A DNA stretch of 64,000 nt. Source: Thermoplasmata archaeon. Lineage in GTDB: Archaea > Thermoplasmatota > Thermoplasmata > Lutacidiplasmatales > UBA184. The position numbers and the translations under genes were made by a program. The stretch is from positions 295,202 through 359,201 of the forward strand of contig JAKASQ010000001.1 of the NCBI GenBank assembly GCA_021828195.1. The letters run 5' to 3'. Under the pieces are notes generated by a model. That model saw only the letters and a program-made list of their open reading frames with translations, was not told the origin of the DNA and searched no databases. Positions 13,216 through 23,122 of this stretch are shown in pieces. Numbering within the stretch: the first letter of the stretch is position 1; every line of letters begins with the position of its first letter.

Positions 13216-13623
13216 TTACGCTCCCTGGGCAGTGGGACGGACCGTGGATGCGGAGGAGTGCAGCGCCTTTCCGAGCGCCGCGAATCCCGTCAGAGCGCAC
13301 TTCAAGCGCACGGGGGAGAGGGGGATTCCGAGCTGCTTGAGAACGTCATCTCGGGTGATGGCTTGGACCTCCTCCAGCGACTTTCCCGCGACTTGGACCG
13401 TCAGGAGGGAGGTGCTCGCGACACTGATCGCGCATCCGTCGCCCGTGAAGCGGATCTCGGCGACCTTGCGGTGGTCGGGGTCGAGCTTGAGTCGCACCTC
13501 GATGTGGTCCCCGCAGGTAGGGTTGGATTCAGCGCCCTCCAGGTCCGCGGAGGGCAGGAGGCCGAAGTTCTTCGGGTTCCGGTAATGGTGCAAGATCATC
13601 TCCTGATACAGGTCGTACGCCAT
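13216..13623 (-). CDS. sufU: SufU/NifU-type Fe-S scaffold or sulfurtransferase
   Basis: 135 residues from the ATG at 13623. The family N-terminus is plain (MAYDLYQEMILHHYRNPKNF), and the three metal-ligand cysteines sit in NPTCGDHIEV, GDGCAIS and LKCALTG, with the Asp of CGD also conserved. SufU proteins accept persulfide from SufS or hold nascent clusters. The spacing between second and third Cys is long, as in SufU rather than IscU. An upstream in-frame start would add 33 unrelated residues and cover the TATA-like box near 13658, so I reject it. It is divergent from sufD, which makes it part of the SUF set though on its own promoter. Confidence 0.9.
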   Translation of the reverse strand: MAYDLYQEMILHHYRNPKNFGLLPSADLEGAESNPTCGDHIEVRLKLDPDHRKVAEIRFTGDGCAISVASTSLLTVQVAGKSLEEVQAITRDDVLKQLGIPLSPVRLKCALTGFAALGKALHSSASTVRPTAQGA

Positions 13624-13654
13624 CGGGATCCCTACTCCTATGAGCCTTCCTGAG

Positions 13655-13663
13655 GTATAAAGC
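13655..13663 (-). promoter_or_regulatory. TATA-like box of sufU
   Basis: The minus-strand CTTTATACC is centred about 35 nt before the sufU ATG, which would give a leader of a few bases. It lies in the interval shared with the divergent sufD promoter. Confidence 0.4.
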
Positions 13664-13767
13664 GCCGTCCCCGCGGAGAGCGGGAAGGTTTCCGGCGCGC
13701 TTACCGTCAGAGAATCGCACACCGGAACCTGCGAATCTGGGCCGGATCGGAGCGTCCACCCCGGGAG

Positions 13768-13775
13768 TTTATAAA
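13768..13775 (+). promoter_or_regulatory. TATA box of sufD
   Basis: A perfect TTTATAAA, centred about 26 nt upstream of the sufD ATG at 13798, predicts a leaderless transcript. Confidence 0.6.
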
Positions 13776-13797
13776 CACTCCCGAGTGTCTAAATCCA
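13775..13797 (+). promoter_or_regulatory. Palindrome and shared SUF element at the sufD start
   Basis: A perfect inverted repeat, ACACTC-CC-GAGTGT (13775-13788), lies between the TATA box and the ATG. Overlapping its right arm is GAGTGTCTAAATCCA (13783-13797), which resembles elements at the sufC/regulator promoter (18897-18911) and the sufB promoter (16686-16700). Its place at the expected transcription start suits a repressor operator. The regulator is inferred to be the SufR-like protein encoded at 18951. Confidence 0.5.
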
Positions 13798-15189
13798 ATG
13801 GCGACGGCAACGACGCAGCGACCGTGGCTCCGGGAGGAAGAGGTTCGCGATCTCTCCGAATCGCTCGCCGACCCGGAGGCGGTGGCTCAGCACCGAGCCG
13901 AGGCCTATCGGCTCTTCCTCGAGCTCCCCATGGAACCCAACCCGCTGTACCGCCACTATGGGTACTTCTCGGGAGTCGACCTGAGCGGCATCGATCCGGT
14001 CGCCCGTGGAGCGCCCGTGGCGCTCCCGCCGGCACTGCCCGACGCGGTCCGCATCGTCCATGACCGGTCGGGGACCCGCATCGAGCTCCCCCCCGCGCTG
14101 CACGAACTCGGCGTGAGTGCGAACGCCTTGATCGACTCCTGGAGGGCCGATGCGACGGCGCTCCCCATGCTGATGCGCGGCTCGGAGACCCCCGCCGATC
14201 GTCTCTCGGCGCTCAGCATCGCGATCCTGAACCGTGGGTATCGGCTCGAGATCCCGGACCGATGCCCGACCCCGATCCGGGTCCAGGACATCACCGTGCT
14301 CTCGCAGGCGCACGAGGCCCAGTCGGTCCGCCGATCGATCCGGATCGGCGAGCGCGCGCAGGTCCTCATGACCGAGGAACTCTACTGCCACGGGCCGGTC
14401 CCCACCGAGCAGCGCTTCTACGGCTCGTCGGTCGACTACGATCTCGCGGCCGACGCGAAGGCCGTCCACCTTTCGGTGCACGCTCCGGATGGTCGGGCCG
14501 TCTCGTTCTACCGTCGCTCGGCGACGACCGAGCGCCGCAGCCGCCTCGCGTGGATCTGGGCCGGTCTCGGAGGGTTCTCGACGCGCGGACGCAACCAGAC
14601 GACGCTGATCGGGAATGGATCGAGCGTCGACGATCTACAGACCTTCTACGGAAGGGACCATCAATCCTACGACAGCGATGTGCACATCACGCACCGCGGC
14701 GAGGACACGCACGGCCAGTCGATCACGCGAGGGGTCTTCCGGGATGACTCGCGCGGAATGAGCCGCGGTCTCGTCCGGATCGAGCCGCCCGCGCGCAAGA
14801 CGGTGAGCTACATCTCCGAGCATGCGATGCTCCTCTCGCGCGGGGCGCGCTCGGACACGATCCCGATTCTCGAGATCCTCTGCCCGGACGTCAAAGCGAC
14901 GCACTCCACCAGCGTCGCCCCGGTCGACCCGGAGAAGATCTTCTACTTAGAATCCCGAGGGATCAGCCCGTCGGAGTCCGTGCGCGCGATCGGGGAGGGT
15001 TTCCTCTCCTACGTGCTCGACCGCGCCCCGATCGCCGGCCTGCGGGAGACCCTGTATCCCCTCCTCGCCGCCCGCTGGGAGGGGAAGGAGATCGACTGGG
15101 GAGACCCGGCATACCCTCCGCTCCCGGATCTCGAAGTGGCGGGCACGGCCGCGGCGCCCGATTGGCGCTTCGACGCGAAGCTCCGATAG
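13798..15189 (+). CDS. sufD: SufD-like component of the SUF scaffold
   Basis: 463 residues of the SufB/SufD family, with a helical N-terminus (residues ~1-130) and the right-handed beta-helix core. Conserved C-terminal family segments are seen: YISEHAMLLSRGARSDTIPI, VAPVDPEKIFYLESRGIS and FLSYVLDRAP. It is more divergent from SufB than SufB orthologues are from each other, and lacks the SufB Cys/Glu scaffold residues in the core, so I call it SufD. With SufB and SufC it forms the SufBCD scaffold where clusters are assembled. Start ATG 13798 is fixed by a TATA box 26 nt upstream. It is convergent with sufB (73-nt gap). Confidence 0.85.
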   Translation: MATATTQRPWLREEEVRDLSESLADPEAVAQHRAEAYRLFLELPMEPNPLYRHYGYFSGVDLSGIDPVARGAPVALPPALPDAVRIVHDRSGTRIELPPALHELGVSANALIDSWRADATALPMLMRGSETPADRLSALSIAILNRGYRLEIPDRCPTPIRVQDITVLSQAHEAQSVRRSIRIGERAQVLMTEELYCHGPVPTEQRFYGSSVDYDLAADAKAVHLSVHAPDGRAVSFYRRSATTERRSRLAWIWAGLGGFSTRGRNQTTLIGNGSSVDDLQTFYGRDHQSYDSDVHITHRGEDTHGQSITRGVFRDDSRGMSRGLVRIEPPARKTVSYISEHAMLLSRGARSDTIPILEILCPDVKATHSTSVAPVDPEKIFYLESRGISPSESVRAIGEGFLSYVLDRAPIAGLRETLYPLLAARWEGKEIDWGDPAYPPLPDLEVAGTAAAPDWRFDAKLR

Positions 15190-15262: not shown

Positions 15263-16675
15263 CTAACCGACCGCGCCGATCATCTCGAGCTGGATGAGAC
15301 GGTTGAGCTCGAGGGCGTAGTCGACGGGTAGCTCCTTGGAGAACTCGGCCAGGAATCCCATCAGGATCAGGTGGATCGCGTCCGACTCCGTGAGCCCGCG
15401 GCTCATGAGGTAGAAGATCTGCTCCTCGCCGATCTTGCCGACCACGGCCTCGTGCGTGATCGTCGCGTCCTCTTCGTGGATCTCGTTGTACGGGTACGTA
15501 TCCGACCGGCTCATGTCGTCGGGGAGCAGGGCGTCGCAGCGGACGGCGGCCTTGACCCCGGTGGCCCCCTTCGCGACGTGGAGGAGGCCGCGGTAGCTCG
15601 TCTGGCCGCCCCGGATGGCGATCGACTTCGAAATGATCTTGCTCGAGGTGTCCGGCGCCGAGTGCACCGCCTTCGCCCCGCTATCGATGATCTGACCGGC
15701 GCTCGCGAACGCGACCGAGAGGATATCCGCCCGCGCGCCGCGACCCTTGAGGTAGACGGAGGGGTACTTCATCGTGATCTTCGAGCCCATGTTGCCGTCG
15801 ACCCACTCGACGAGCGAGTTCTCGTACGCCACGGCCCGCTTCGTCACCAGATTGTACACGTTCTTCGACCAGTTCTGCACGGTCGTGTAGCGCACCTTGG
15901 CGTACGGTTCGGCCACGACCTCGACAACGGCCGCATGCAGGGAGTCCGTCGAGTAGATCGGAGCGGTGCAGCCCTCGATGTAGTGGATCTTGGCGCCCTT
16001 GTCGGCGATGATCAGCGTGCGTTCGAACTGCCCGACGTTCTTCGCGTTGATGCGGAAGTAGGCCTGCAGCGGGATGCCGCAGTCGACCCCGGGTGGGATG
16101 TAGACGAAGCTGCCTCCGGACCAGACGGCGCTGTTGAGCGCGGAGAACTTGTTGTCGTTGTACGGGACGATCTTGCCGAAATACTTCCGGACGATATCCG
16201 GGTGCTCCCGCACCGCGGTGTCCGTGTCGCAGAAGATGATTCCCTTCTTCTCGAGGTCCTCGCGGAGCTTGTGGTAGACGGTACCGCTGTCGTATTGGGC
16301 CCCGACGCCCCCGAAGAAGTCGCGCTCGGCCTTGGGGATCCCGAGCTTGTCGAACGTGTTCTTGATGTCCGCGGGCAGGTCCTCCCACTTGCGCTTGGGC
16401 TCGTCCTCCCCCATCGGGGCGGCGTAGAACGTATAGGAGTCGAAATCGAGCTCGTCGAGCTTGGGACCCCAGTCGGGCATCGGGCGCTTGACGAAATGTT
16501 CGTAGGCGCGCAGGCGGTACTCCCGGAGCCAGTCCGGTTCCTTCTTCCAATCGGAGATCTGGTGGATCGTTTCGATCGAGAGACCCTTTCCAGAGCGGAG
16601 TTTGTACGTCTCCGGGTCCTTGAAGTCGTAGCGGGTATAGTCGAGCGGAGTGAACTCCTGAGCTCCCTGCGCCAT
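15263..16675 (-). CDS. sufB: Fe-S cluster assembly protein SufB
   Basis: 470 residues with strong SufB hallmarks: the N-terminal YRLRAYEHFVKRPMPDWG, SFVYIPPGVDCGIPLQAYFR, YIEGCTAPIYSTDSLHAAVV and the C-terminal ITHEAVVGKIGEEQIFYL. The cysteine in the IEGCTAP segment and nearby acidic residues correspond to the sulfur-transfer and cluster-binding positions known for SufB. It forms the SufBC(2)D scaffold with the SufC ATPase. Start ATG 16675 is supported by a TATA box near 16711 and a SUF promoter element between them. It lies downstream of sufC-sufS on the same strand but has its own promoter in the 133-nt gap. Confidence 0.95.
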   Translation of the reverse strand: MAQGAQEFTPLDYTRYDFKDPETYKLRSGKGLSIETIHQISDWKKEPDWLREYRLRAYEHFVKRPMPDWGPKLDELDFDSYTFYAAPMGEDEPKRKWEDLPADIKNTFDKLGIPKAERDFFGGVGAQYDSGTVYHKLREDLEKKGIIFCDTDTAVREHPDIVRKYFGKIVPYNDNKFSALNSAVWSGGSFVYIPPGVDCGIPLQAYFRINAKNVGQFERTLIIADKGAKIHYIEGCTAPIYSTDSLHAAVVEVVAEPYAKVRYTTVQNWSKNVYNLVTKRAVAYENSLVEWVDGNMGSKITMKYPSVYLKGRGARADILSVAFASAGQIIDSGAKAVHSAPDTSSKIISKSIAIRGGQTSYRGLLHVAKGATGVKAAVRCDALLPDDMSRSDTYPYNEIHEEDATITHEAVVGKIGEEQIFYLMSRGLTESDAIHLILMGFLAEFSKELPVDYALELNRLIQLEMIGAVG

Positions 16676-16685
16676 GGTGGTCCCG

Positions 16686-16700
16686 TCAATTCAAGCACCA
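16686..16700 (-). promoter_or_regulatory. Shared SUF element upstream of sufB
   Basis: The minus-strand TGGTGCTTGAATTGA matches the pattern RGTGYYTRAATYSA (from the second base) seen at the sufD and sufC/regulator promoters. It lies between the sufB TATA box and the ATG, where a bound repressor could block initiation. Confidence 0.4.
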
Positions 16701-16703
16701 GAT

Positions 16704-16714
16704 GGTATTTAAAT
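16704..16714 (-). promoter_or_regulatory. TATA box of sufB
   Basis: The minus-strand ATTTAAATACC is centred about 35 nt before the sufB ATG, leaving a leader of roughly 10 nt. It shows that sufB can be transcribed separately from sufS. Confidence 0.5.
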
Positions 16715-16808: not shown

Positions 16809-18035
16809 TTAGGCGAATACCTTGACGACCTTGTCCAGCGCGTCATAGAGCAGGTCGATCTCTTCGAGGGTGTTGTACAGATAGGGGCTCGCCCGCGCCA
16901 TGGCTCCGACCCCGTACCGGTCCATGAGCGGCTGCGAGCACTGGCGCCCCGCTCGGATCGCGATCCCTTCCGCGTCGAGGATCGAAGCGATGTCGTGCGG
17001 GTGGATCCCTTCGAGCGCGAAGGAGAACACCGCCTCGCGTTCGCGTACGTCCCGGGATCCGAAGATCCGGATCTTCTTCCCGAGGCGCTCGTCCGCGTTC
17101 TGGAACAAGCGGGCCTGCATCGATCGCTCGTGGCGGGCGAGGTCCTCCCACCCGATGCCTTCGAGGTAGTCGAGCGCGACGGAGAGCCCGATCGCGCCGG
17201 CGATGTTCGGCGTGCCGGCCTCGAACTTCGCCGGAGGCTCGCGATACGATATCCGACCGGCATGCACCTCCTCGATCATGGAGCCCCCTCCCATCCAGGG
17301 GGGCATCTCCTCCAGGAGCTCCTTCCGGGCCCACAACGCTCCGATGCCGGTCGGCCCGAGGGTCTTGTGCCCGGAGAACGCGACCGCGTCGGCTCCGAGC
17401 GCGACGACGTCGATGGGGATGTGCGGGGCCGACTGCGCTGCGTCCAGGACCACGACCGCCCCGGCGGCGTGGGCTCGGTCCGCGATCTCGCGGACCGGGT
17501 TGACGGTGCCGAGGACGTTGGAGACGTGGGGAAGGGTAACGACCTTCGTCTTCCCATCGAACCATCGGTCGTACTCGTCCAGACGCAGGTGCCCGGCTTC
17601 GTCCACGCTGACGAACTCGAGGGTTGTACCTCGCTCCTCCCGCAGCATGTGCCAAGGGACCACGTTGGCGTGATGGTCGCTAACGGTAGCGACGACCCGG
17701 TCGCCCGCCTTCAAGCGGCTCCGGCCGAGACCGTGGGCGAGCAGATTGAGCGCCTCGGTCGCCCCCCGGACGAACACAATCTCGGATGGATCGGGCGCCC
17801 GCAGGAACCGCCCGACGCGCGCCCGGGCGTCCTCGTAGGCGTCCGTGGCCTCCTCGCTGAGCAGGTAGATCCCGCGGTGGACGTTGGAGTTCGTCTCGCG
17901 ATAGAAATTGGACTCCGCATCGATGACGACGCGCGGCTTCTGCGAGGTCGCGGCGGAGTCGAGGTACACGAGCGGCTTGCCGCGCACACGGCGGGAGAGG
18001 AGAGGAAACTGTTCGCGGATCTTCTGGACGTCCAT
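16809..18035 (-). CDS. sufS: Cysteine desulfurase SufS
   Basis: 408-residue PLP enzyme of aminotransferase class V. It converts cysteine to alanine and loads persulfide sulfur for the SUF scaffold. Seen here: LVYLDSAATSQKP at the N-terminus, DAAQSAPHIPIDV, the PLP lysine in FSGHKTLGPTGIG, and GRQCSQPLMDRYG, where the Cys is the persulfide-forming residue in the SufS-type position. Start ATG 18035 is 42 nt after the sufC stop, so sufC and sufS are likely one transcript. Its substrate cysteine could come from the CysM-type operon that diverges from sufC. Confidence 0.95.
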   Translation of the reverse strand: MDVQKIREQFPLLSRRVRGKPLVYLDSAATSQKPRVVIDAESNFYRETNSNVHRGIYLLSEEATDAYEDARARVGRFLRAPDPSEIVFVRGATEALNLLAHGLGRSRLKAGDRVVATVSDHHANVVPWHMLREERGTTLEFVSVDEAGHLRLDEYDRWFDGKTKVVTLPHVSNVLGTVNPVREIADRAHAAGAVVVLDAAQSAPHIPIDVVALGADAVAFSGHKTLGPTGIGALWARKELLEEMPPWMGGGSMIEEVHAGRISYREPPAKFEAGTPNIAGAIGLSVALDYLEGIGWEDLARHERSMQARLFQNADERLGKKIRIFGSRDVREREAVFSFALEGIHPHDIASILDAEGIAIRAGRQCSQPLMDRYGVGAMARASPYLYNTLEEIDLLYDALDKVVKVFA

Positions 18036-18077: not shown

Positions 18078-18848
18078 CTAGTTCTGCGTCGGGGCGCCGA
18101 CTTTGACCCAGTCGTACCCTTTCGCTTCGAGTTCGTCGACCAATTCCCGTCCGCCCGACATGGCGATGACGCCATCGACCATGACATAGACGCGGTCCGG
18201 GTCGACGTACTTCAGGATCCGTTGGTAGTGCGTGATGAGCAGGATTCCTTCCTCCGGGCCATGGAGCTTGGCGACCGTCTCTCCGACAGCGCGCACGGCG
18301 TCGATGTCCAGGCCGGAATCGGGCTCGTCCAGGATCGAGAACAAGGGGTGGAGCATCGCCATCTGGAGGACCTCGTTGCGCTTCTTCTCGCCGCCGGAGA
18401 ATCCCTCGTTGAGGGATCGCTTCAGCATCGATTCCTCCATTTCGAGGTGTCCGAGGTTGGTCTTGAGGTCCTTGTCGAACGCCACGGTGTCCGCCGTCTC
18501 GGCGGTGTGGCGCTGCATGTAGGCGGTCCACAGGAACTTCGACACCGAGAGCCCCGAGACCTCCTGGGGGTATTGGAACCCGAGGAAGAGGCCGGCGCGG
18601 GAGCGTTGGTCGACCGGCATCTTGAGAAGGTCCACCCCATCAAGGAGGGCCTCGCCCGAGGTGACCTTGTACTTCGGGTGGCCCATCAGCGCATAGGCGA
18701 GGGTGCTCTTGCCGGAGCCGTTCGGGCCCATTAGGGCGACCAGTTCGCCGGTCCGCAGGGAAAGGTCGACGCCCTTGAGGATCTCCTTGCCCGCGACCTC
18801 GACCCGGAGACCCTTGATGACCAGCGTATGAAGGGGCTTTTCCGCCAT
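18078..18848 (-). CDS. sufC: Fe-S assembly ATPase SufC
   Basis: 256-residue ABC-type ATPase that powers conformational change in the SufBCD scaffold in the cytosol; it is not a transporter. Motifs in order: Walker A GPNGSGKSTLAYALMG near residue 40, the SufC-specific QYPQEVSGLSVSKFL, the signature FSGGEKKRNEVLQ near 150, Walker B SILDEPDSGLDIDAV near 170 and ITHYQRILKYV. First gene of the sufC-sufS run. A TATA-like box (18881-18890) and a shared SUF element (18897-18911) lie upstream, in the divergent interval with the regulator gene. Confidence 0.95.
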   Translation of the reverse strand: MAEKPLHTLVIKGLRVEVAGKEILKGVDLSLRTGELVALMGPNGSGKSTLAYALMGHPKYKVTSGEALLDGVDLLKMPVDQRSRAGLFLGFQYPQEVSGLSVSKFLWTAYMQRHTAETADTVAFDKDLKTNLGHLEMEESMLKRSLNEGFSGGEKKRNEVLQMAMLHPLFSILDEPDSGLDIDAVRAVGETVAKLHGPEEGILLITHYQRILKYVDPDRVYVMVDGVIAMSGGRELVDELEAKGYDWVKVGAPTQN

Positions 18849-18880: not shown

Positions 18881-18890
18881 TTATTTAAGC
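18881..18890 (-). promoter_or_regulatory. TATA-like box of sufC
   Basis: The minus-strand GCTTAAATAA is centred about 37 nt before the sufC ATG, giving a leader of roughly 10 nt. Confidence 0.45.
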
Positions 18891-18896
18891 ATAGCG

Positions 18897-18911
18897 CGGT
18901 GCCTAAATCCA
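18897..18911 (+). promoter_or_regulatory. Shared SUF element between sufC and the regulator gene
   Basis: CGGTGCCTAAATCCA shares 11 of 15 positions with the sufD element. It lies between the two divergent TATA-like boxes (18881-18890 and 18911-18918), so one bound regulator could control both sufCS and its own operon. Confidence 0.45.
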
Positions 18912-18950: not shown

Positions 18951-19598
18951 ATGAGCGCAGCAGATCTGGCCCCTCACGAAGGAACTCGGGGGCGTATTCT
19001 CGATCAACTCGCTCAGGCCCCATGCACGGCCCGCAACATCGCAAACACCCTCGGCATCCAAGAGAGCGCCGCGCGAGGGCATCTCGAGCGCCTGCGAGAG
19101 CGGGGATACGTGATCCCGACGTTCCGTCGCGAAGGAGTCGGCCGCCCGCGCAAGCGCTACGCCCTCACCCCCGAGGGTCAGGAGCTCTTCCCGAAGAGAT
19201 ACGACCTCCTCCTCGATGCGTTGATGGACGAGATCCTCGCCCGCCAGGGGGAGCAGTTCGCCAATGACCTCTTCGCGAGCGCGGCGGCGCGCGTGGCCCA
19301 TGGGATCGCCCAGGGAATCCCGAAGAACGGTTCGCTCGAGGAACGCACCCGCCACCTCATCGACTCGCTCAACGCCTTCGGATTCAACTGCACCATGGAG
19401 AAGATGACGGACGGGGGGTTCCGGATCGTTCGCTCGAACTGCGTCTTCCGACGGAACGCGCTGTCTCACAGCCGCCTGATGTGCAATGTGTTCGACCAGC
19501 GCCTGACGGAGACCCTGATCGGTCAAGTGGACGTCGATCTGCAGGACACGATCGGCCGTGGGGGGATGCGATGTTCGCATCTGATCCATCTGCGGTAG
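18951..19598 (+). CDS. SufR-like winged-helix regulator with C-terminal cysteine cluster
   Basis: 215 residues. The N-terminal winged helix (residues ~10-80: ILDQLAQAPCTARNIANTLG, AARGHLERLRERGYV, the wing GVGRPRKRYALTPEG) is of the SufR/ArsR-like type. The C-terminal half carries cysteines spaced C-x13-C-x29-C (SNC, LMC, RCS), close to the pattern of SufR proteins, which bind an Fe-S cluster and repress suf genes. A fourth Cys (FNC) lies 17 residues before the first. It heads the operon with cysM, the JAMM protease and the CysO-MoeZ fusion and diverges from sufC. Fe-S sensing is inferred from spacing and context. Confidence 0.8.
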   Translation: MSAADLAPHEGTRGRILDQLAQAPCTARNIANTLGIQESAARGHLERLRERGYVIPTFRREGVGRPRKRYALTPEGQELFPKRYDLLLDALMDEILARQGEQFANDLFASAAARVAHGIAQGIPKNGSLEERTRHLIDSLNAFGFNCTMEKMTDGGFRIVRSNCVFRRNALSHSRLMCNVFDQRLTETLIGQVDVDLQDTIGRGGMRCSHLIHLR

Positions 19599-20542
19599 GC
19601 GCGAACCGCACGATCGAGCGGACCCAGGGCTCGGAACACACAGTCCTCCGAGATCCTCTGCTCCGAGCGATCGGCAACACGCCCCTCCTCCCGCTCGATC
19701 GGATCGTCGCACGGCACGGGGGCGGGTTCCGCCTTTTCGGAAAGGCCGAATTCCTCAATCCCACGGGCTCGGTGAAGGACCGCGCGGCTCTGTTCATTGT
19801 CGAAGAGGCCATCGAAGCGGGCGAGCTCCGGAACGGGAGAACGCTCGTGGACGCCTCCAGCGGCAACACCGCGGTCGCCTACGCGATGCTCGGGGCGCGC
19901 CTCGGCTTTCCGGTACGGCTCTGCGTCCCCCGCAACGCGCACCCCGAGCGCCTGCGTCGGATGCGAGCGTTGGGCGCGGAGATCGTCCTGACCGACCCGA
20001 TGGAGGGAAGCGATGGCGCCCAGCGAGAGGCCCTGCGCATCTCCCGAGCCCAGCCGGAGAAGTACTACTATCCGGATCAGTACAACAGCCCCGCCAATCC
20101 CGGGGCCCATTACGCGGGCACGGGCCCGGAGATCTGGCATCAGACGAACGGAAGGCTCACTCACTTCGTCGCGGGCGTGGGCACCGGGGGCACCATCTCG
20201 GGGGTGGCGCGGTACCTGAAGGAACAACAGCCGACGATCCGGGTCGTGGGCGTCGAGCCGACCGGCCCCATGCACGGGATCGAGGGACTCAAGCACCTCC
20301 CGTCAGCCTTGCGCCCATCGACGTACCAGGAGCGCTGGGTGGATGCAACGATGCGGATCGAGACCGAGGTGGCGATCGAGGCCCAAGGCGAGCTCGCCCG
20401 AGAAGAGGGGATCTCGGTGGGTCGATCCGCCGGCGCCGCCGTCGCAGCCTCCCTCGCGCTCGGTGCCGCGAGTCCGGAGGCGTTCATCGTGACGATCCTG
20501 CCGGACGCCGCGGACCCCATGGCGCAGGAGACCGACCGATGA
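19571..20542 (+). CDS. cysM: Cysteine synthase, CysM-like
   Basis: 323 residues of the fold-type II PLP family. Seen here: GNTPLLPLDRIV, the PLP lysine in NPTGSVKDRAALFIVE, the substrate loop DASSGNTAVAYAM, NPGAHYAGTGPEIWHQ and the phosphate-binding GVGTGGTISGVARYL. It looks closer to the mycobacterial CysM type, which uses O-phosphoserine and a CysO thiocarboxylate, than to CysK, and its two downstream neighbours are the CysO-pathway partners. The ATG at 19571 overlaps the regulator gene by 28 nt and follows a G-rich ribosome-binding-like stretch. The substrate preference is inferred, not proved. Confidence 0.88.
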   Translation: MFASDPSAVGANRTIERTQGSEHTVLRDPLLRAIGNTPLLPLDRIVARHGGGFRLFGKAEFLNPTGSVKDRAALFIVEEAIEAGELRNGRTLVDASSGNTAVAYAMLGARLGFPVRLCVPRNAHPERLRRMRALGAEIVLTDPMEGSDGAQREALRISRAQPEKYYYPDQYNSPANPGAHYAGTGPEIWHQTNGRLTHFVAGVGTGGTISGVARYLKEQQPTIRVVGVEPTGPMHGIEGLKHLPSALRPSTYQERWVDATMRIETEVAIEAQGELAREEGISVGRSAGAAVAASLALGAASPEAFIVTILPDAADPMAQETDR

Positions 20543-20985
20543 CGGTAGCGAACCTCGCTCCGGGGCTCGTCGAAGCGATCGCTCGCCACGGGGAGGAGAC
20601 GTACCCGGACGAGTGCTGCGGATTCCTCGTCGGCACCGCCAGCGACGAAGAGCGCCACGTCACCCGCATCGAGCGCGCGACGAACGAGTACGCGGGAGAG
20701 CGGCGGCGGCGCTTCGTGATCCGTGCGGAGGAGCTGCAGCGGATCGAGGAGGGCCTCGAAGGCACTTCGCTGTTCGTCCTCGGCTTCTACCACTCCCACC
20801 CGGACCACCCGGCACGGCCCTCCGCGTTCGACCAGGACCACGCCTGGCCCTGGTACGTGTACCTCGTTCAGAACGTCGAACGAGGTCGTGCCGGCGAGAT
20901 CGGCGCGTTCGAGCTCGAGGCGGAGGCCCGAGAGTTCCGTGCGATCCCGCTCCGACCGGCTTCACCCCTCCACGCCACCGTCTGA
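20539..20985 (+). CDS. JAMM/MPN+ metalloprotease, Mec-like
   Basis: 148 residues with an intact JAMM zinc centre: the catalytic Glu in YPDECCGFLVG near residue 28 and HSHPDHPARPSAFDQDHA near 95 (HxH-x7-S-x2-D). In mycobacteria the homologue Mec cleaves CysO-cysteine to free cysteine. Here the ATG overlaps the cysM stop (ATGA) and the gene is followed at once by the CysO-MoeZ fusion, so the same role is likely. Because CysO is fused to its E1 here, the protease may also have to cut after the internal Gly-Gly to mature the carrier. Family and motif are firm; the substrate is inferred. Confidence 0.88.
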   Translation: MTVANLAPGLVEAIARHGEETYPDECCGFLVGTASDEERHVTRIERATNEYAGERRRRFVIRAEELQRIEEGLEGTSLFVLGFYHSHPDHPARPSAFDQDHAWPWYVYLVQNVERGRAGEIGAFELEAEAREFRAIPLRPASPLHATV

Positions 20986-21033
20986 ATGGAACGATACCGA
21001 GAGCTCAAGAACGGACGAACCCAGGTACCAGCG

Positions 21034-22527
21034 ATGGCGCAAGTCTCGGTCAAGATCCCTACGCCACTGCGCTCGTTCGCCGGCGGCGCGGCCACGATCC
21101 CCGTCGAGGGCGCCACGGTCGGCGAGGTGCTCCGGCGGATCACGACCGCCCACTCCGGGCTCGGTCGCCACCTGTTCACCCCGGAGGGAAAGCTCCGCAG
21201 CTTCGTCACGGTCTATCGCAACGACGAGGACATTCGCTACCTGGAACGGGACTCCACGCCCGTGAAGGATGGCGACGTGGTGTCCATCGTCCCAGCGATC
21301 GCCGGAGGGGGCGGTGTCGAATCAAGGACCCCAATCCCGCTCGTCCTCCCCGAGCGCAGCGTTCCGGCCGGAAGCCGCGCGCGGGCCCTGTCCAACGAGG
21401 AGATGCTGCGGTACAGTCGCCACCTCCTCCTCAGCGAGGTCGGAGTCCTAGGTCAGAAGAAGTTGCGCGACGCGAAGGTTCTGATCGTAGGCGCCGGTGG
21501 GCTCGGCTCTCCCACCGCGCTGTATCTCGCCGCCGTCGGTGTGGGAGAGATCGGGCTTGTGGATTTCGACCGGGTCGAGGTCTCGAACCTGCAGCGCCAG
21601 ATCCTGTTCACGACGGCGGATGTGGGCCATGCGAAAGTGGACGCGGCCCGAGACCGGCTCCAGGCGATGAATCCCGGGGTCCATGTGACCGCGTTCTCCG
21701 AGCCGCTCACCTCCGCGAACGCGATGGACGTGATTCGGGGGTACGACATTGTGATCGACGGGACGGACAACTTCGCCACGCGCTACCTGGTCAACGACGC
21801 CTGCGTTCTGCTCGGCAAGCCCAACGTCTATGGGTCGATCTATCGGTTCGAAGGGCAGGCGAGCGTCTTCGACGCCCGGGCGGGCCCCTGCTACCGCTGC
21901 CTGTACCCGGAACCCCCGCCTCCGGGCCTCGTTCCGTCGTGCGCCGAGGCCGGTGTGCTCGGGGTGCTGCCGGGGATCGTGGGGGTCATCCAGGCGACCG
22001 AGGCGATCAAGATCCTCCTCGGAGCCGGTGAACCCCTCGTCGGACGCCTGCTCTTGTTCGATGCACTTGCGATGTCGTTCCGGGAGCTCGCGCTGCGCAA
22101 GAACCCGGACTGCGACCTCTGCGGTCCCCACGCGACGCAGAAGGGGCTCATCGACTACCTAGAGTTCTGCGGTGTCCCGGCCGTCGGTTCGGCCCCGGCT
22201 CCGTCGGGGGTACCCGAGGTGAGTGCGAAGGCGCTCGCGGAGGAACTGAGCTCTCCCGAACCGCCGTTCCTGCTCGATGTTCGCGAGCCCGAGGAGTGGG
22301 AGATCGTTCGCCTTCCCGGCGCCTACTTGATCCCCCGCCTCGAGCTGCCCGACCGCCTGAACGAGGTGACGGGAGCTCGACGGGTCGTGGTGTACTGCAA
22401 GAGCGGGGTCCGTTCGAGCGCCGCCACGAAGCTCCTCCTCGGGCTCGGCTTCTCCGGAGTGCGCAACCTACGCGGAGGGATCGACGCCTGGGCGAAGCAG
22501 GTCGACCCTTCGATGCCGCGATACTGA
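21034..22527 (+). CDS. Fusion of CysO/MoaD-like sulfur carrier, MoeZ/ThiF-type E1 and rhodanese
   Basis: About 497 residues. Residues 1-94 are a ubiquitin-like sulfur carrier resembling mycobacterial CysO (VSVKIPTPLRSFAGG, VYRNDEDIRYL, VVSIVPAIAGG). Its diglycine lies in a GGGG run at residues 91-94 (bases 21304-21315) and is internal. Residues ~120-380 are an E1-like domain: the nucleotide loop GAGGLGSPTALYLAAVG, ESNLQRQ-type VSNLQRQILF, GTDNFATRYLVND, and two zinc CxxC pairs (PCYRC, DCDLC). Residues ~385-497 are a rhodanese with active Cys in VVYCKSGVRS. I chose ATG 21034 because CysO homologues begin there; ATG 20986, right after the JAMM stop, adds 16 residues. Confidence 0.88.
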   Translation: MAQVSVKIPTPLRSFAGGAATIPVEGATVGEVLRRITTAHSGLGRHLFTPEGKLRSFVTVYRNDEDIRYLERDSTPVKDGDVVSIVPAIAGGGGVESRTPIPLVLPERSVPAGSRARALSNEEMLRYSRHLLLSEVGVLGQKKLRDAKVLIVGAGGLGSPTALYLAAVGVGEIGLVDFDRVEVSNLQRQILFTTADVGHAKVDAARDRLQAMNPGVHVTAFSEPLTSANAMDVIRGYDIVIDGTDNFATRYLVNDACVLLGKPNVYGSIYRFEGQASVFDARAGPCYRCLYPEPPPPGLVPSCAEAGVLGVLPGIVGVIQATEAIKILLGAGEPLVGRLLLFDALAMSFRELALRKNPDCDLCGPHATQKGLIDYLEFCGVPAVGSAPAPSGVPEVSAKALAEELSSPEPPFLLDVREPEEWEIVRLPGAYLIPRLELPDRLNEVTGARRVVVYCKSGVRSSAATKLLLGLGFSGVRNLRGGIDAWAKQVDPSMPRY

Positions 22528-22534
22528 ACGAACG

Positions 22535-23122
22535 TTACATCGACCCCGGGGCGCGCGCGCCTGCCGGGGCCCCGTCGTCGATCGCGAGGGGAGCACGATA
22601 CGAGCGCACGCGCCGGGAGAGTTCCCGCGCGAACGCCGGCGGGTCGCGCGGGGAGATGAAGAGCGGCACCGAATCGGCCGTGATCAGGAGCCCTTTCGGC
22701 GAGGTGTAGATCGCGTCGATGGGTCCGAGCGAAGGCGTCCACATCCGGCCGCGCCATCCCCAGGATCCGAAGAAGCCGCCCGGTGAGAGATCGCTCAGAT
22801 TGACGAACTCGATCTTCCGCACCTCGTGCAGGTTCACGTGCCGGGAGCCGAGGATCCGGGAGGCGTGCAGCCGGTCGGCGTCCATCGAGTAGTGCGTGGA
22901 AAGGTAGCGGACCAGGAAGAACAGGATGAGCGCATAGAGAAGGTAGGGCACCCACCACCCGCCGGAGATGAGGCTCGCGGGCACCGTGAAGAAGGCGAGG
23001 AGGAGCAGAATGATGTACGTGCCGATGACCGCATAGGAGTACGACGCCCAGGACCGATAGTGTCCTCCTCCCGCGGTGGGGGAGTCCAGCTTGAGGTCGG
23101 CGGGCTCCGTGGCCACCTTCAT
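22535..23122 (-). CDS. Membrane protein with bacterial PH-like domain
   Basis: 195 residues. Two adjacent transmembrane helices (residues ~30-70, including YAVIGTYIILLLLAFFTVPA) are followed by a soluble C-terminal domain. This has the pattern of membrane-anchored bPH2/YdbS-like proteins: a YSMDADRLHASRILG strand pair, HVNLHEVRKIEFV and GLLITADSVPLFISPRDPPA. The function is unknown; such domains probably mediate protein or lipid contacts at the membrane. Its stop is 7 nt from the convergent CysO-MoeZ stop. I saw no functional link to that operon. The last ~15 residues are low-complexity Ala/Gly/Pro. Confidence 0.65.
   Translation of the reverse strand: MKVATEPADLKLDSPTAGGGHYRSWASYSYAVIGTYIILLLLAFFTVPASLISGGWWVPYLLYALILFFLVRYLSTHYSMDADRLHASRILGSRHVNLHEVRKIEFVNLSDLSPGGFFGSWGWRGRMWTPSLGPIDAIYTSPKGLLITADSVPLFISPRDPPAFARELSRRVRSYRAPLAIDDGAPAGARAPGSM

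Follow-up and report, generated by a model that had tools for sequence, protein, structure and literature searches.

A candidate SufR-type regulon joining Fe-S cluster assembly to a carrier-based sulfur operon in Thermoplasmata archaea

Described systems and the archaeal locus

Sulfur carriers of the ThiS/MoaD type, E1-rhodanese proteins, JAB (JAMM) proteases and cysteine synthases are encoded together in operon type 4c, which was described in 2006 (Iyer, Burroughs and Aravind 2006; PMC1779556). Its hosts, as listed in the accessible text of that paper, are alpha- and gammaproteobacteria, Acidobacteria, one actinobacterium, Chloroflexus and one member of Bacteroidetes/Chlorobi, and the JAB protein was suggested to free a carrier that is fused to another protein. 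We analysed a 64,000-nucleotide stretch of an uncultured Thermoplasmata archaeon (assembly GCA_021828195.1, contig JAKASQ010000001.1, positions 295,202 to 359,201 of the forward strand; hereafter the window), in which all four functions also occur together, in an operon headed by a SufR-like regulator gene beside the SUF genes for iron-sulfur (Fe-S) cluster assembly. Row 4c of the 2006 paper lists no archaeon, and SUF genes and SufR do not occur in its accessible text; here, moreover, a single polypeptide comprises carrier, E1 and rhodanese. Judged by gene content, the core of four genes is the type 4c operon known from bacteria since 2006. The first-pass annotation of this DNA had considered a regulated sulfur loop in an archaeon to be undescribed; no link between an archaeal SufR and cysteine synthesis was found in the open-licence literature.

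The CysM-CysO-Mec-MoeZ pathway of mycobacteria (PMC3227635) likewise comprises a cysteine synthase, a carrier with GG, a JAMM protease and an E1-rhodanese. Its MoeZR serves MoaD too, as the single E1 would in the archaeon. According to the accessible text of that paper, however, CysO is a free protein and moeZR (Rv3206c) lies far from cysO-cysM (Rv1335-Rv1336). Archaeal MoaD-MoeBR fusions of the same kind as the one in the window were reported in 2024 as cluster 356.3, mainly from unclassified Euryarchaeota and Poseidoniales, and a transfer from Acidobacteria to archaea was proposed (PMC11237513). They are filed there under molybdopterin; in the accessible text a need for post-translational cleavage is noted for a MoaD-MoaE fusion, CysM is absent and JAMM appears once, in a reference title.

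The archaeal operon consists of four same-direction genes at 18951-22527: the winged-helix regulator (18951..19598, + strand), a CysM-type pyridoxal phosphate (PLP) cysteine synthase (19571..20542, +; best start ATG 19571), a Mec-like JAMM/MPN+ metalloprotease (20539..20985, +) and a CysO-MoeZ-rhodanese (ThiS-ThiF-rhodanese) fusion (20986..22527, +), for which ATG 21034 is a likelier start than 20986. The cysM gene overlaps sufR by 28 bp and the JAMM gene overlaps cysM by 4 bp; all three junctions overlap or abut, as the first-pass annotation had reported. Since this order recurs in same-family genomes, chance or an assembly artefact as its source is ruled out. The protease was also correctly described as intact, with both the catalytic motif H-S-H-P-x6-S-x2-D and the upstream Glu. 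The sufC, sufS and sufB genes have the opposite orientation, and sufD and sufU lie farther out. We consider it probable, at roughly 0.6, that this is a joint sulfur locus, in which an Fe-S-sensing regulator of the SufR type would govern both SUF and a carrier hub that includes cysteine synthesis.

A palindrome in the SUF promoter gaps

An exact palindrome is located at 18884..18907, in the gap between sufC and sufR. It recurs with one mismatch at 13770..13793, in the gap between the divergent sufU and sufD, and in a weaker form with two mismatches at 16690..16713, just 5' of sufB. In the genus g1 the sufC-sufR gap contains a sharply bounded block, and 52 of 56 gaps are within 5 mismatches of its 29-bp consensus (shuffled mean 15.9). 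Comparison of the g1 gap with that of f9, another family of the class, leaves TTTA-N2-CA-N8-TG-N2-TAAA as the retained core. This core palindrome is exact in the gaps of 51/56 g1, 4/6 g6 and 8/8 f9 loci, and is off by 1-2 mismatches in genera g7 (5 gaps) and g3 (one gap).

At up to two mismatches, the core occurs three times in the window against 0.05 expected, each time in a SUF promoter gap, and none of 100 shuffles reached three. The same scan of 100 loci (1.29 Mb) gave 110 sites, compared with 6 for the reversed pattern. Sixty-seven of these are at sufC/sufR, 31 at sufD with or without sufU, two at sufB (L114 and L115 only) and four at cysM in genus g2; the rest are two at sufC of a distant locus in g8, one inside the g8 sufS and three elsewhere. 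Because the short pattern was picked after the sufC/sufR gaps had been viewed, independence cannot be claimed for the counts at those gaps; the sites at sufU/sufD and sufB appeared later. Scanned over the organism's own genome, the 29-bp form has one site. It is likely from these comparisons that the palindrome is the operator of the SufR-like regulator. In g2, where cysM has no SUF genes beside it, four of five cysM promoters (L164-L167) carry a site with two mismatches and one carries a site with three; they overlap TATA stretches and are weak.

A second arrangement of the same genes is found in f9 (8 genomes). There a single strand carries sufC-sufU-cysM-fusion-sufB-sufD-Rieske-sufS-mec with sufR divergent, and in L238 four junctions overlap by 4-8 bp. 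All ten genes are present in five loci (L238, L266-L269), while contig ends truncate L264, L265 and L270, which match in the remaining part, L265 stopping 133 bases beyond sufS. Together with the operator-like palindrome, this arrangement upholds the proposed linkage of the operon to SUF. In a sample of 389 genomes of the phylum, CysM at E <= 1e-70 was found in 37, 21 of them outside the window's own family. Among 20 such loci outside the family, a SUF operon of the f9 type is present in one (L238), mec, carrier and E1 stand beside cysM in L236, L241 and L242, mec alone does so in L237 and L240, and no carrier, JAMM or E1 was found within the stretch in 14.

Within the window's order, 106 genomes were searched, and CysM of the window type, counted at at least 53% identity and in some cases partial, is present in 59. 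Wide flanks were retrieved for 55 of these 59 loci besides the window (G093, G097 and G100 were left out). The expected co-occurrence was largely found: in 48 of the 55 same-family loci sufR precedes the CysM domain on the same strand by no more than 260 bases, two others are cut by a contig end, and the remaining five, all of g2, have cysM-mec-fusion with neither sufR nor sufC nearby. SufR relatives at E <= 0.001 are present in 98/106 genomes, and in 17 of 20 further loci around them sufC stands divergent beside sufR, the exceptions being three of g2. Own-family loci with sufR-SUF but no cysM are among these, which makes cysM the variable element and sufR-SUF the constant one. One genome (G057, contamination 6%) has two SUF-sufR-JAMM-fusion loci, L182 and L183, by duplication or in a mixed bin.

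The SUF genes of the window were called as sufC ATPase (18078..18848, -; TIGR01978, 316.1 bits), sufS cysteine desulfurase (16809..18035, -; TIGR01979, 537.2 bits) and sufB (15263..16675, -; TIGR01980, 680.6 bits), all above cut-off, a sufU/IscU-like scaffold or sulfur-transfer protein (13216..13722, -; TIGR01994, 93.9 bits, cut-off 92.5) and sufD (13798..15189, +; SUFBD_core; TIGR01981, 165.7 bits, below the cut-off of 222). In several relatives SufB is interrupted in frame by about 350 aa that include a LAGLIDADG domain, a probable intein (L129:3920-6397, L138:12881-15343, L150:3411-5888, the last also with a sub-threshold intein-splicing match); the window sufB has none. A bacterial-PH-domain protein (22535-23122, -) is convergent to the fusion and occupies the same place in many relatives. 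The genome comprises 1.62 Mb in 7 contigs with 93.6% completeness, and GC is 64-72%.

Proposed carrier release and the reach of a putative sulfur hub

In the fusion, the carrier (about 21034-21309) ends in AGG and is followed by a low-confidence linker, E1 and rhodanese, so that the AGG is internal and free only after cleavage. The predicted structure has a mean predicted local distance difference test score (pLDDT) of 84.9, and residues 91-115, from the GG onward, score <50; in this model they are likely an exposed linker. The best fold matches are Uba4, MoeB-MoaD and ThiS-ThiF. Among the 75 same-family E1 loci retrieved, JAMM accompanies the fused carrier in 60/60 (45 with cysM, 15 without) and an unfused E1 in 0/15. 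The JAMM motif is intact in 15/15 of the fused loci without cysM, and the two JAMM proteins lacking it are both cut by contig ends. Thus JAMM tracks carrier fusion, not CysM, within the family, which suggests that JAMM frees the carrier from the fusion. Free carriers are present in 8 of the 15 unfused loci (7 adjacent, that of L232 apart), and all end in GG without extension. Nine genomes of the unfused loci keep one other, distant JAMM, and six have none at E <= 0.01. The best tree implies 7 changes of the JAMM-fusion trait.

In bacteria the locus was followed in 74 loci from one peptide-pattern-based scan (76 loci in all). A JAMM relative follows cysM in 68/74; four of the six others end <600 bases past cysM, L009 and L076 do not. 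A carrier is present in 65 of the bacterial loci, fused in 35 and unfused in 30; 29 of the latter have residues past AGG, which would need removal too. In 14 acidobacterial loci (L010, L013, L014, L025-L028, L030, L038, L040, L050, L056, L063, L083) the end of the unfused CysO is not GG; a short Cys-Ile/Val-Cys tail such as RCICS, possibly removed by JAMM or metal-binding, follows the AGG.

In the whole genome, only the E1 of the locus matches the ThiF family above cut-off; a second match (22 bits) falls below it. Three carriers are encoded: the fused one and two free ones ending exactly in GG (G000:C2:207432-208026 and G000:C6:107186-107422), one of which adjoins MoaE, and MoaE is present in 19/19 same-genus genomes searched. 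Since this E1 is the only one found, it probably serves further carriers. It is possible, although we hold it improbable, that E1-rhodanese-carrier is a general sulfur hub for molybdopterin, tRNA thiolation and protein modification, sharing the SufS persulfide with Fe-S assembly, and that cysM rides along as a dispensable passenger rather than a partner. The 15 fused loci that keep carrier, JAMM and E1 without cysM point the same way and imply that the hub has other work besides cysteine. Seven loci in which E1 stands without carrier, JAMM or cysM also speak for it. In bacteria, a cysteine desulfurase homologue lies downstream in 11/74 loci, six of them also with an IscU-like gene, so a tie to sulfur mobilisation recurs there. 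A mere passenger is harder to reconcile with the 45 E1-bearing cysM loci of the family, all of which have fused carrier and JAMM, or with a cysM that overlaps its partner genes and clades with bacterial cysM of the same operon type. The best reading of these loci is that cysteine synthesis would belong to the carrier-based hub in many but not all of the relatives.

Relatives of the core operon in the scan are mostly from Acidobacteria and Chloroflexi, and kin in Thermoplasmata were among the matches. No relative of the window SufR was found at E <= 0.001 in the 74 bacterial loci. The transfer from Actinobacteria hinted at in the first-pass annotation is not supported: none of the 76 loci, which were selected by peptide patterns, has an actinobacterial title, although the 2006 paper lists one actinobacterium, and the CysM tree, whose Actinobacteria are only the Mycobacterium tuberculosis (Mtb) chains, lends no support. 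The sole bacterial row that joins the archaeal CysM clade is a long-branched Gemmatimonadetes sequence (support 92, not starred).

Regulator, synthase and the proposed circuit

The regulator matches SufR_cyano (TIGR02702) at E 7.7e-12 and 45.3 bits, where the cut-off is 178.8, and the f9 regulator, at 48 bits, is likewise below it. C164, H173, C178 and C208 are conserved in at least 97% of 68 regulator sequences. Mtb SufR requires C203, C216 and C244 and is similar in its winged helix, its three C-terminal cysteines and its place adjoining suf genes, as given in the accessible text of PMC6034842; the cysteine gaps are 13 and 29 residues here versus 12 and 27 there. It differs in that the archaeal regulator is under the SufR equivalog cut-off and also heads the cysM operon. 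By these features the regulator is SufR-like, not a certified SufR, and the SufR-like character given in the first-pass annotation is borne out by the cysteines and the location beside suf genes and a palindrome, not by the equivalog score. The score, the left palindrome arm overlapping a TATA-like stretch and the weak, TATA-rich g2 sites would also suit a regulator that senses no cluster and a palindrome that serves as a common core-promoter motif, made up of TATA and another element, instead of an operator. We regard this as unlikely, because the two arms keep a fixed N8 spacing in two families with different cores, the three cysteines are conserved, and no site with <=3 mismatches was found in 195 upstream windows, mostly operon-internal, of four other locus genes.

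The CysM tree has 86 rows and was built with a short search and supports from SH-aLRT (the Shimodaira-Hasegawa-like approximate likelihood ratio test) only. Archaeal cluster CysM is one clade (98, starred), and archaeal and bacterial cluster CysM together form one starred set (98). This set is separated from the second copies, CysK and cystathionine beta-synthase (CBS) with 98, starred, and also from the solved CysM chains, presumably enterobacterial. The gene was thus rightly called CysM-like, while the label 'mycobacterial-type' is not supported: Mtb CysM is a long branch (1.77) with a position support of 60 and no supported grouping with the archaeal enzymes, and the carrier is fused. In addition, Mtb CysM Arg220 (chain numbering), presumably the residue for phosphoserine, is Lys241 in the window, and Lys is shared by at least 97% of the 56 archaeal sequences and by all 72 bacterial ones; basic residues are also found at this position in bacterial CysM chains named CysB. 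CysE was not found at E <= 0.001 in any of the 19 same-genus genomes searched; among 31 relatives it is above its cut-off in four. A distant relative in the order (G002:C11:239161-240560) has a cysteine synthase adjoining CysE, a canonical O-acetylserine pair unlike the window's own genus. Since CysM is not CysK-like and CysE was not found, synthesis from O-phosphoserine and a thiocarboxylate is plausible, though unproved. That CysM is instead an ordinary sulfide-dependent synthase, its linkage reflecting the use of cysteine by SUF and the carrier belonging to other pathways, is the least probable explanation, since the best solved matches (chains called cysteine synthase B or O-acetylserine sulfhydrylase B), the lysine and the 14 phylum-level loci without partners speak for it but the same-genus genomes offer no canonical O-acetylserine source and cysM co-occurs with carrier and JAMM in the family.

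Several observations weigh against the joint sulfur locus. Besides the low SufR score, the lysine and the 15 fused loci without cysM, genera g4 (4 loci) and g5 (3) keep the gene order yet have sites at chance level, with 3-6 mismatches like shuffles. The association of JAMM with fusion contains only 3 independent starred-branch pairs, which agree 3/3 (p 0.25), and 7/15 unfused loci show no carrier in the stretch, perhaps owing to one-step deletions. Outside the family the association breaks down in L241 (an archaeon) and L031 (a bacterium), where JAMM and cysM accompany a free carrier that ends in GG, as is expected if JAMM releases cysteine too. The genome also encodes a CBS-like enzyme and a Cys/Met PLP enzyme, so cysteine may arise by transsulfuration; a second synthase, about 40% identical to CysM, is present in most listed genomes, and the window organism's own copy, where examined, is CBS-like. 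The candidate for phosphoserine supply (L203), resembling phosphoserine aminotransferase, is a class-V aminotransferase with 48 bits to serC_3, whose cut-off is 402.

On the reading of a joint sulfur locus, the following circuit may be proposed. When clusters are plentiful, the regulator would bind the sufC/sufR and sufU/sufD palindromes, and less tightly the one at sufB, and repress SUF and its own operon; cluster shortage would release both. JAMM would cleave the fusion past AGG to free CysO, E1 would adenylate CysO, and the rhodanese domain would sulfurate it to the thiocarboxylate. CysM would then join CysO-COSH to an activated serine, probably O-phosphoserine, and JAMM would liberate cysteine, which SufS would consume. 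The persulfide of SufS had been proposed to reach the rhodanese in a sulfur loop; this would break cysteine to make cysteine and yield none net, so net synthesis needs another source, and thiosulfate or other sulfane sulfur is likelier. Alternatively, SufS may feed the hub for other products while cysM refills cysteine from outside sulfur, which fits the cysM-less loci too. For the full proposal, an archaeal SufR regulon in which a shared palindromic operator links Fe-S assembly and carrier-based cysteine synthesis, in two arrangements in two families, with JAMM first cutting the carrier from a carrier-E1-rhodanese polyprotein and later releasing cysteine, we see about even odds.

To our knowledge, how archaea match sulfur supply to demand has been little studied. 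Fe-S assembly drains cysteine sulfur, and the locus is a concrete candidate for a circuit with one sensor, one 24-bp site and opposed operons. The family also provides a natural experiment on JAMM proteases beside carriers, in that the locus has the protease only where the carrier is fused to E1 and not where it ends in GG. Molybdopterin and other carrier-dependent sulfur may come under this switch as well, given that the genome yielded no other E1 above cut-off. The joint locus suggests that sulfur supply and sulfur use are tuned as one system in these archaea.

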